Shown in pieces: positions 36,720-44,253 of a stretch of DNA of 64,000 nt (position 1 is the first letter of the stretch; every line of letters starts with the position of its first letter). The stretch spans positions 62,001-126,000 of the forward strand of contig JAFQAQ010000005.1 in the NCBI GenBank assembly GCA_017399945.1, in the 5' to 3' direction. Under the pieces are notes generated by a model. It was given only the letters and a program-made list of their open reading frames with translations. It was not told where the DNA came from and ran no database searches. Origin of the DNA: Clostridia bacterium. Lineage in GTDB: Bacteria; Bacillota; Clostridia; Christensenellales; Borkfalkiaceae. Made by a program: the position numbers and the translations under genes.

Positions 36720-36748
36720 TTGAAATTTTTTTAGATGTATGTTAAAAT
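36720..36748 (+). promoter_or_regulatory. uraA-upp promoter
   Basis: TTGAAA (36720-36725), 17-base spacer, TAAAAT (36743-36748). Transcription would start near 36755, only a few bases before the ribosome binding site of the leader peptide. Confidence 0.65.
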
Positions 36749-36766
36749 TTTGCTAATGGTGAAATT

Positions 36767-36856
36767 ATGGTAAATATACGTCAATGTAAAATTTCATATA
36801 CTCGTCATTTTGATATAGGGATATTTTCCCCTTTTTTAGGAAAGAGAGTCTTTTAA
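36767..36856 (+). CDS. putative 29-residue attenuator leader peptide of uraA
   Basis: A short frame of 29 codons starts at ATG 36767, four bases after GGTGA, an extended Shine-Dalgarno match. Its TAA (36854-36856) is the last triplet of the 5' arm of the following terminator. Codons 19-24 (IFSPFL) are encoded by a U-rich tract, ATATTTTCCCCTTTTTTA, preceded by GGG that can pair with the CCC inside it. This is the layout of E. coli pyrL before pyrBI, where a translating ribosome that follows RNA polymerase closely, when UTP is scarce, prevents the terminator. The peptide itself shows no resemblance I recognise. Too short for routine gene calling. Confidence 0.55.
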   Translation: MVNIRQCKISYTRHFDIGIFSPFLGKRVF

Positions 36857-36879
36857 ATGTGTTTTAAAAGACTTTTTTT
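36847..36879 (+). terminator. attenuator terminator in the uraA leader
   Basis: A perfect 10-bp stem AGTCTTTTAA/TTAAAAGACT (36847-36856 with 36864-36873) with a 7-base loop and seven T. It lies between the uraA promoter and uraA, so it controls read-through into uraA-upp; it could also stop transcripts coming from pyrB. Confidence 0.85.
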
Positions 36880-36914
36880 ATACGTTTAGAAAAATTTATT
36901 GGAGGTTTTTACAA

Positions 36915-38351
36915 ATGAACAACGTAAATCTTGTTTACGGCGTTAAGGACAAGCCTGGCTTTTGGAAGACAATACTATTTGCTCTTCAACAAGTTCTAGC
37001 TATTTTGGCTGCAACTATCGTAGTTCCCGTTATTATCAATGGTAACTCTGCTGAAAACGCAGCCGCTGGCATTGGTGTGGCTTCTAACATGTCGCAGTCT
37101 GCTGCGCTTTTCGGAGCTGGTGTAGGTACTATCGTGTATCTATTATTCACCAAATTTAGAAGCCCTGTTTTCCTAGGTTCTTCTTTTGCGTTCTTAGGCT
37201 CTATGACTGCTGCCTTTGCAGGTGCTACTTCTGCTTCCGCAGGATATTTAGGAATTATCGTAGGTGCAGTTTTTGCTGGTCTAGTATACGTGATTATTGC
37301 ATTAGTCGTTAAGTTTGTAGGCGTTAATTGGATTGATAAACTTATGCCCGCCGCAGTAATTGGACCGACCGTTGCCGTTATCGGTTTATCTTTATCCGGT
37401 AATGCGGTTGGTGATTTAACTAAGGGCTATGCATCTTGCAGTCCTTGGGTTGCTTTGCTTTGTGGTTTAGTAACCTTAATAACCGTTATTATTTGTTCGG
37501 TATATGGCAAAAAGATGCTTAAAATTATACCTTTCATAATTGGTATTTTGGCAGGTTATGCCTTAGGTGCTATCTTCACCATAATCGGTACTGTTGCTGA
37601 CGTTCCTGAACTTATCGTTATTAATTTTAGTTTATTTAAGGATATGCAATGGCTTCCTGAATTTACTTTTGTAGAAGTAATTGAAGGTTTTGGTGAAATT
37701 AAGGATTTTGGTTCTTTATTGGTTACCGTTGCAGTTGCTTATATTCCCGTTGCATTCGTAGTATTTGCTGAACACCTTGCTGACCATAAGAACATTTCTT
37801 CTATAATTGGTACCGACTTAACCAAGGATCCTGGTTTGCATAGAACTCTTCTTGGCGACGGTATTGGCTCCATGGCTGGCGCATTCTTTGGCGGTTGCCC
37901 AAATACTACTTATGGAGAATCCGTTGGTTGTGTTGCAATTTCTGGAAATGCTTCTGTCGTTACTATTCTTGGCGCTGCTATCATTTGTATTCTTGCTGCG
38001 TTCTTTGCACCTTTCGTAACCCTACTCGCAACTATTCCATCTTGCGTAATGGGTGGCGTTTGCTTTGCTTTATATGGATTTATCGCTGTATCTGGATTAA
38101 AGATGGTTCAAAAAGTTGATCTTAACGAAAATGGAAATCTCTTTACAGTTTCCACTATCTTAATCGCAGGTGTTGGTGGATTAGTTCTTAATATCGGTAA
38201 AGTTACTTTAACCGCAGTTGCGTGTGCACTTATTCTTGGTATTATCGTTAACTTGATTTCTAAGAAGGGAACTAAAAAAGCTGATTGTGCGGAAGGTTGT
38301 GACGGTTGCTCTGAAGAGGACGTTTGTGTTAAAGACGTTAATGATAAATAA
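36915..38351 (+). CDS. uraA: uracil permease (NCS2 family) with cysteine-rich tail
   Basis: Proton-coupled uracil importer of the inner membrane. The 478 residues have about 12-14 membrane segments, an N-terminal YGVKDKPGFWKTILFALQQ, VFAEHLADHKN (the conserved helix 8 motif) and FGGCPNTTYGESVG (helix 10 half-helix region). After the last helix comes a hydrophilic tail of about 25 residues with four closely spaced cysteines (CAEGCDGC then VC), which I do not know from UraA and which could bind a metal. TTGGAGG before ATG. Followed by upp, so uracil is imported and converted to UMP. Confidence 0.93.
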   Translation: MNNVNLVYGVKDKPGFWKTILFALQQVLAILAATIVVPVIINGNSAENAAAGIGVASNMSQSAALFGAGVGTIVYLLFTKFRSPVFLGSSFAFLGSMTAAFAGATSASAGYLGIIVGAVFAGLVYVIIALVVKFVGVNWIDKLMPAAVIGPTVAVIGLSLSGNAVGDLTKGYASCSPWVALLCGLVTLITVIICSVYGKKMLKIIPFIIGILAGYALGAIFTIIGTVADVPELIVINFSLFKDMQWLPEFTFVEVIEGFGEIKDFGSLLVTVAVAYIPVAFVVFAEHLADHKNISSIIGTDLTKDPGLHRTLLGDGIGSMAGAFFGGCPNTTYGESVGCVAISGNASVVTILGAAIICILAAFFAPFVTLLATIPSCVMGGVCFALYGFIAVSGLKMVQKVDLNENGNLFTVSTILIAGVGGLVLNIGKVTLTAVACALILGIIVNLISKKGTKKADCAEGCDGCSEEDVCVKDVNDK

Positions 38352-38367
38352 TTATTAGGAAAATAGT

Positions 38368-39006
38368 ATGAAAAATTATAATAACGTTTTTATTTTAGAT
38401 CACCCTTTAATTAGACATAAACTAGCTATTATTAGAAATAAAAACACGGATACTAAACAGTTTAGGGAAGTAATTAAGGAATTGGCAACGTTGATGGCGT
38501 ATGAGAGTTTTAAGGACGTTCCAACTCAAGAAATTGAAGTGGAAACTCCTTTGGAAAAAGTTACCCAAACCGTTGTTAAAGAAAATTCTATTGCAATAGT
38601 TCCTATTCTTCGTGCTGGTCTTGGTATGGTTGATGGTATTTTAACCCTTTTCCCAGCGGCTAAGGTTGGGCATATAGGTCTATATCGTGATGAGGAAACT
38701 TTTGAGCCAAAAGAATATTATTGCAAACTTCCCGTTGGAATTGACGAAAAGGTTGTAATGGTAGTTGATCCAATGCTTGCTACGGGTGGAAGTGCGTGTG
38801 ACGCAATCGCAATGCTTAAAAAGCGTGGTTGTAAAAAAATTAAGTTGTTATCTATCATAGGAGCACCCGAAGGTGTTTCTAAGGTTGCAGAAACGCATCC
38901 TGACGTTGAAATTTACGTTTCTACTTTGGATAGAGAACTTAATGAAAATTGTTATATTCTCCCAGGACTTGGAGATGCCGGAGATAGAATTTTCGGTACG
39001 AAATAG
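38368..39006 (+). CDS. upp: uracil phosphoribosyltransferase
   Basis: Converts uracil and PRPP to UMP. The 212 residues have [32 protein letters not shown], the PRPP loop [12 protein letters not shown] and the uracil-binding end [15 protein letters not shown]. Downstream of uraA with 16 bases between, in the usual permease-enzyme salvage pair. AGGAAAATAG before ATG; a strong terminator follows. Confidence 0.97.
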
Positions 39007-43903: not shown

Positions 43904-44253
43904 GGGGACGATTCAGTTTCGATTGGGCGACTGGTACTCGTCGTAAGCATACCGAAGGTCCGACTTCGTTAAAACGGAAACTTAAATTTAAATGCTAACA
44001 ATAATCAATTAGCATACGCTGCTTAATTTAGCGTACGTCCTATCCGTTCTCTCCCGTTGGGATGGAATAGGGCGTCAGTTAGACGGGAAACGCGTTTTCG
44101 TTCGTTCGGTGACGAATTTGCGTAATTTAGCCGAATCGATGCGGTAAAGGTGGCCGACGACCATAACGTATTTAAATTTAACCGACGGATAAGTATGTAG
44201 AAGGATTAGTAGAAGCGTTCAAGACCGGAGTGCAACTCTCCGCGTCTCCACCA
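43904..44253 (+). ncRNA. ssrA: transfer-messenger RNA
   Basis: About 350 bases. The 5' end GGGGACGATTCAGTTTCGAT pairs through GGGGACG with CGTCTCC before the encoded 3' ACCA, giving the alanyl acceptor stem (with one G-U), and GTGCAACTC-type T-arm sequence precedes it. The tag frame starts at the resume codon GCT 43994 and ends at TAA 44024-44026, coding for ANNNQLAYAA; the final residues differ from the common ALAA. Several pseudoknot-like repeats follow. It lies directly after smpB, so the two partners are linked, and a terminator follows. Confidence 0.96.

Follow-up and report, generated by a model that had tools for sequence, protein, structure and literature searches.

The closest described counterparts of the element analyzed here come from Escherichia coli. 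The pyrBI operon is preceded by a leader frame (PyrL), a U-rich tract, and an intrinsic terminator, with no antiterminator and with pyrimidine genes downstream; the leader frame reads through the terminator, and at high UTP transcription stutters at the AAUUUG start. The pyrE attenuator lies behind rph, an enzyme gene with its stop codon just before the terminator, and only a closely following ribosome blocks termination there. Attenuation by PyrR (RF00515) serves the same pathway in the bacterial group considered here, including the pyr operon of the genome analyzed, and depends on the PyrR protein and a conserved RNA fold. According to the relevant part of a 2026 review, pyrimidine genes of Gram-positive bacteria rely on PyrR, whereas in Gram-negative bacteria premature termination or the choice of start site is more common (PMC13328217). 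Leader peptides as such are not new in Bacillota: histidine leader peptides represent leader-peptide attenuation in bacilli (PMC2965389, in part), and in the tlrB leader of Bacillus subtilis, as described in portions of PMC6851288, a NusG-dependent pause synchronizes polymerase and ribosome, and the ribosome on the leader peptide prevents termination. No pyrimidine leader-peptide attenuator from Bacillota, whether pyrBI-like or before uraA, was found among the open-licence papers in PubMed Central, a collection outside which most subscription journals lie.

We analyzed a stretch of 64,000 nucleotides (hereafter, the window) from the genome of a Clostridia bacterium of the family Borkfalkiaceae (1.59 Mb in 29 contigs), the nearest named relatives of which are gut Clostridia; Candidatus Gallimonas and Scatosoma are among the more distant UraA matches, and Candidatus Borkfalkia is placed in the Christensenellales by NCBI. 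The region upstream of the uracil permease gene uraA contains the features listed below, together with a PyrR-type element in the same window that provides the contrast.

26873..26991, + strand: contrast element, a PyrR-type attenuator upstream of pyrR, which opens the pyr operon (RF00515, full length, 46.3 bits, E = 1.2e-05, below the gathering score of 54)
36720..36748, + strand: promoter, consisting of a −35 element TTGAAA (36720-36725), a 17-nt spacer, and an extended −10 element TAAAAT (36743-36748)
36758..36762, + strand: Shine-Dalgarno-like GGTGA of the leader frame, read from the sequence
36767..36856, + strand: leader frame of 29 codons, MVNIRQCKISYTRHFDIGIFSPFLGKRVF and stop, from ATG (36767) to TAA (36854-36856), translation predicted
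36797..36841, + strand: U-rich tract, the proposed pause region (last 45 nt 5' of the extended stem, 47% U)
36842..36879, + strand: intrinsic terminator with a 10-bp core stem (36847-36856/36864-36873), extended arms (36842-36878), and a U run
36915..38351, + strand: uraA, uracil/xanthine permease family (PF00860, Pfam match), the putatively controlled gene
38368..39006, + strand: upp, uracil phosphoribosyltransferase (PF14681, Pfam match), presumably co-transcribed with uraA

The promoter ends 18 nt upstream of the leader ATG, and across 29 leaders of the genus the corresponding distance, taken from the end of the best −10 match, is 18-53 nt. The arms of the core stem, AGTCTTTTAA (36847-36856) and TTAAAAGACT (36864-36873), are followed by the U run, and the leader stop codon (36854-36856) forms the final three nucleotides of the 5' arm. 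The promoter, GGTGA, the 29-codon frame, the six U (36832-36837), and the 10-bp terminator with the stop codon in its 5' arm all lie where the preliminary description of this locus had placed them. The GGG/CCC hairpin that it reported is also in place, as GGG..CCCC, but folds no better than shuffled sequences: the body of the window leader has a z score of +0.7, and no conserved pause hairpin is apparent across the 29 leaders (mean z +0.05, 1 of 29 below −2). As the body alone gives no signal, the better-than-shuffled fold of the whole window leader (z −3.79) is attributable to the terminator. Elsewhere in the window, PyrB (PF02729/PF00185; 35601-36692) carries a PyrI metal-binding domain (PF02748) fused to its C terminus, and the PyrB match of only ~300 residues in other genus members suggests an unfused form; carB follows pyrC, with no carA between them (27566-31966). 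The tmRNA gene (43904-44253; RF00023, 145 bits) is the sole match in the window at the Rfam gathering score, and the uraA leader matches no family convincingly at a lax threshold.

We interpret the arrangement before uraA as a ribosome-coupled attenuator, a reading to which, from comparison of sequences, we assign a probability of about 0.9. Transcription from the uraA promoter would meet the terminator before uraA. A first ribosome close behind RNA polymerase would, on reaching the end of the frame, cover the 5' arm, so that no hairpin forms and uraA-upp is read; with polymerase far ahead of the ribosome, the hairpin would form and transcription would end. The U-rich, G-poor end of the frame would slow the polymerase at low UTP (perhaps also CTP) and let the ribosome catch up, so that falling pyrimidine nucleotides would raise uracil import and salvage. 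A closely trailing ribosome thus probably decides whether uraA is read in these Clostridia, with translation of the leader and pausing in the tract as presumed steps. That the attenuator senses UTP, joining the logic of pyrBI to the stop-codon geometry of pyrE, we consider likely; UTP as the signal is suggested by the target genes, the U-rich tract, the exchange with PyrR, and the analogy to pyrBI.

The uraA leader resembles pyrBI in its frame, U-rich tract, intrinsic terminator, lack of an antiterminator, and downstream pyrimidine genes, but it belongs to another phylum, most of its frames end at the edge of the stem, and, apart from a single genome, the genes behind it in those seen serve uptake and salvage. 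With pyrE it shares the stop codon adjoining the terminator, although the uraA leader is a dedicated frame of 22-44 codons rather than an enzyme gene. The proposed mechanism is also akin to tlrB, in which a pause-synchronized leader ribosome prevents termination in a member of the Bacillota; the signal there is the arrest that tylosin causes at an RYR peptide (PMC6851288, in part), whereas the uraA leader peptide varies with little constraint. Histidine leaders sense the amino acid through runs of His codons, none of which were seen in the uraA leaders. In contrast to PyrR attenuation, the conserved fold was not found in the uraA leader, and PyrR itself is often missing.

Searches with UraA and the stretches fetched for them yielded 218 distinct uraA upstream regions, those with identical last 200 nt being counted once (12 pairs); L129 and L174 had no uraA start. 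A readable region was available for 31 of the 44 genomes of the window's genus. We scored as a leader any ATG frame of 22-44 codons with a Shine-Dalgarno-like motif and a stop between −13 and +15 nt relative to the 5' edge of the stem, a rule drawn up after looking at the leaders and applied identically in the null model, where it is satisfied by 0.9% of shuffles of the full region and by 20.6% of those in which the Shine-Dalgarno motif and ATG are kept and the body is shuffled. The preliminary description had held that relatives retaining the terminator with a broken frame would speak against its reading; the opposite was found, as a frame fitting the rule stands at the terminator before uraA in each of the 29 genus leaders that have one, out of 31 loci, the other 2 lacking a terminator. 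The automatic rule alone gives 28 of 31, the terminator of L058 having been set by hand, and L003 and L055 were scored as leaderless by inspection, in agreement with the automatic run. Two genus members, G028 and G003, have no leader before uraA among the 31 readable regions. Both alternative reading frames are closed in 27 of the 29 leaders, and the distance from terminator to uraA start has a median of 44 nt (range 28-162). Over 195 kb of the window's contig, the rule returns 4 cases at 79 terminators, 2 of which precede a gene, one of them uraA. Outside the genus, 19 of 187 uraA upstream regions fit the rule, namely, those of family f3 (12 genomes), f10, f19, f32, f1 (two further genera), L111, and L162 (from a member of the Eubacteriales); the cases of L100 and L102 are weak, and the f3 leaders L279 and L281 are identical. 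A PyrR-like site, according to a pattern of our own, precedes uraA in 26 of the 187 regions outside the genus and in none of the 31 within it.

The last 45 nt upstream of the stem contain 47% U and 66% pyrimidine, versus 30% and 46% in genes, the comparison being between leaders from 29 genomes and 1437 segments of 20 window genes from one genome; the U content exceeds the 95th percentile of gene segments in 21 of the 29 leaders. The first ten leader codons are ordinary (34% U). Runs of at least four U are spread over the three codon phases (17/28/24), which suggests that the bases matter rather than a codon. CUUUAAA is present in 10 of the 29 leaders versus 1.8 expected (the best 7-mer of the shuffles averages 8.3), and the core C-UU(U)(U)-AAA in 16 of 29, at 8.3/kb versus 1.8/kb in window genes. 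UUA is followed by AAC, AAT, AAG, and AAA alike, an interchange of Asn and Lys that again indicates the bases rather than the peptide; the core may be a pause signal or have been inherited in common by a sub-clade. The leaders show no excess of U at fourfold-degenerate third positions (49% vs 51%), and TTNTTT, the NusG pause motif, occurs at its expected count (43 observed, 43.1 expected). The 14 letters after the −10 element contain no consistent U-run near +7 in the 29 leaders, and thus no sign of reiterative transcription of the pyrBI type; the window leader has three U directly after its −10 element.

The suggestion that the neighboring pyr operon uses PyrR is supported by the full-length, if subthreshold, RF00515 match listed above, behind which pyrR (27010) opens the operon. 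RF00515 at E ≤ 0.01 is found at 3 of 20 pyrR loci of the genus. By eye, a PyrR-type element is present wherever pyrR stands first in the pyr operon (11 of 11 heads, L175-L185) and at none of 10 loci where pyrR lies behind another gene (L186-L188, L190-L196). At this second location, pyrR sits directly behind a gene with a signature resembling that of a pseudouridine synthase. PyrR (E below 1e-40) was detected in 22 of the 44 genus genomes, including both leaderless members. The uraA leader had been proposed as a second UTP sensor, which would apply to the window genome and to the leader genomes that carry PyrR as well (11 of 29); it is not only that, since in 18 of the 29 (draft) genomes with a leader PyrR was not found. 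Outside the genus, PyrR was found in none of 17 tested leader genomes (best E 1.5e-07; 17 of the 19 leader regions, L111 and L162 being left out) versus 38 of 59 leaderless controls, hand-chosen at about 90% completeness or better from genomes with a fetched uraA upstream region (Fisher p 1.5e-06), and the difference recurs within f3 (0/12 vs 5/6, p 7e-04) and with the genus added (11/46 vs 40/61, p 3e-05), all p values being indicative because related genomes are not independent. The converse fails, as 21 of the 59 controls have neither leader nor PyrR. The leader is thus associated with genomes lacking PyrR, and the element can be described as a putative pyrBI/pyrE-type attenuator in Bacillota, often where PyrR is missing.

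Uracil salvage is a constant companion of the leader: every one of the 29 genus genomes with a leader contains upp. Thirteen of these 29 lack a PyrB match below E 1e-100, and 12 of the 13 also have no PyrR; some are 58-61% complete, and five of the 12, at 93-98% complete, look like pyrimidine auxotrophs living on salvage. A PyrB-like match in 14 of the 17 leader genomes from outside the genus shows that most of those are not salvage-only. In genus member G037, the UraA of which is 82% identical to that of the window, the leader is followed in one run by uraA-upp-pyrC-carB-pyrK-pyrD-pyrF-pgp-pyrE-pyrB, where pgp is a phosphatase gene; no PyrR was found in this genome, the gap between upp and pyrC contains a perfect hairpin without a U run, and it is the sole genome seen with pyr genes behind the leader. 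We also considered pyrB as the head of its own operon and rejected it: no leader frame precedes pyrB at 28 genus loci, and the gene ahead of pyrB is pyrE in the 7 loci compared. Neither was a leader found before pyrB at 14 loci of outside-genus leader genomes (three without a pyrB start, about five doubtful), nor a leader frame at the PyrR-less pyr operon heads of four genus genomes (G005, G002, G025, and G006) and of six f3 genomes; the device is therefore seen only before uraA. Upstream of pyrC of the PyrR-less operon in G005 (L236), a hairpin and a U run lie directly after the promoter, with no leader frame. In f3 genus g78 (L324, L325, and L328), PyrR-less pyr operons headed by pyrC start at TATAATGGAAAAAATTT(C)AGG; these starts resemble AAUUUG of pyrBI, and by this analogy control of the pyr operons by reiterative transcription is possible.

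A coupled attenuator of this anatomy could also respond to another signal, such as an amino acid, a nucleotide other than UTP, or the overall pace of translation, with the U tract serving only to keep polymerase and ribosome in step. The ordinary frequencies of U at fourfold sites and of TTNTTT, as well as the C-UU(U)(U)-AAA core, would suit such a signal, yet we regard it as unlikely, given that the target is uraA (by design, UraA being the search query) accompanied by upp throughout, that the leader is associated with missing PyrR, and that the Asn/Lys codons after UUA vary, with no codon run common to all leaders detectable by eye and hence no leader of the trp/his type.

The variation of the peptide bears on a second alternative, namely, that the ribosome stalls on a nascent peptide that senses uracil or a nucleotide, as in the arrest leaders TnaC and ErmCL. 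Across most of the genus, the leader peptides are unrelated, likeness being confined to sub-groups. In favor of an arrest peptide, some leaders of the genus have in common a 3' half that reads, by eye, as [S/L]-L-[N/K]-xxx-L-[N/K], but this type was not seen in the remaining leaders. In f3, where amino acids change freely, four leaders of one genus are all 75 nt long, with no indels: one pair has 22 differences, distributed 6/6/10 over codon positions, with 10 amino acid changes; another has 28 (9/10/9), with 12 amino acid changes; and a further pair differs at one base. Together with the interchange of N and K, this makes peptide arrest very improbable. In support of the preliminary description, the frame, the U-rich tract, and the stop at the stem are kept in relatives while the bases and most of the peptide change; judged from these alignments, selection keeps the frame and not the peptide.

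The position of the stop codon separates the leaders from ordinary genes. Measured from the first base of the stop to the stem, the median distance is 1 nt in leaders and 15.5 nt in 34 terminator-bearing ordinary genes of the window's contig (Mann-Whitney p 1.4e-10); the stop overlaps the stem by at least 2 bases in 25 of 29 leaders versus none of the 34 genes, one of which overlaps by a single base and three more of which abut it. Genes, in other words, tend to keep the terminator clear of the last ribosome, whereas leaders tend to place it beneath. From the leader stop, the median distance is 10 nt to the end of the 5' arm (range −4 to 22) and 32 nt to the termination point; given the former, the 5' arm would lie under a ribosome that has reached the frame's end. 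In E. coli, as reported in parts of PMC4824070, a stop codon lying within ~27 nt of a terminator represses it almost fully, the repression fades beyond ~27-30 nt and with uncoupled translation, and pausing sets its steep dependence on distance. Blocking of the terminator by the ribosome is thereby strongly suggested for the uraA leaders. As a third alternative, the frame could be an ordinary short gene that has a terminator, lies upstream of uraA by chance, and regulates nothing; the one other small frame of this kind before a gene in the contig (C10:39688) would be a parallel. We consider this alternative marginally less probable still than peptide arrest: the peptides are mostly unrelated across the genus, ordinary stops hardly overlap the stem, and the best −10 match between terminator and uraA has a −35 match of ≤3/6 in 26 of 29 leaders. 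The spacing of ordinary stops and terminators in this contig is itself short and resembles that of runaway transcription; such spacing, which has been read in portions of PMC7858274 as a sign of uncoupled transcription, speaks against the coupled reading.

No antiterminator was detected, the duplex formed by the 5' arm having a mean z of +0.58, with none of 29 leaders below −2; with no pairing partner for this arm, occupancy by the ribosome is the simplest switch. A divergent PyrR-type or other RNA-fold attenuator is accordingly scarcely conceivable: although PyrR is the top Rfam match of the leader, this match (20.7 bits, E 0.79) is far under the gathering score of 54 and lacks the binding loop, consistent with the earlier view that the uraA leader is distinct from the PyrR site; there is no alternative pairing to the 5' arm, and PyrR was not found in 18 of 29 genus and 17 of 17 outside-genus leader genomes.

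At the level of the order, probably the Christensenellales, we tentatively propose, at somewhat below even odds, that missing PyrR has repeatedly been replaced by ribosome-coupled, UTP-sensing attenuators before uraA, with unrelated peptides, in a setting where the ordinary stop-terminator spacing looks uncoupled, and that in one genome the controlled run includes pyr genes. One bacterial order appears to have both kinds of control and to swap one for the other. About 45 natural leaders, many unrelated in sequence, offer material on what makes polymerase sensitive to UTP. For B. subtilis, runaway transcription has been described (PMC7858274, in part), and the uraA leaders provide a test case for transcription-translation coupling in Bacillota; if the proposed mechanism is true, coupling would arise at particular sites, through a pause that depends on a nucleotide, and would not characterize the cell as a whole.
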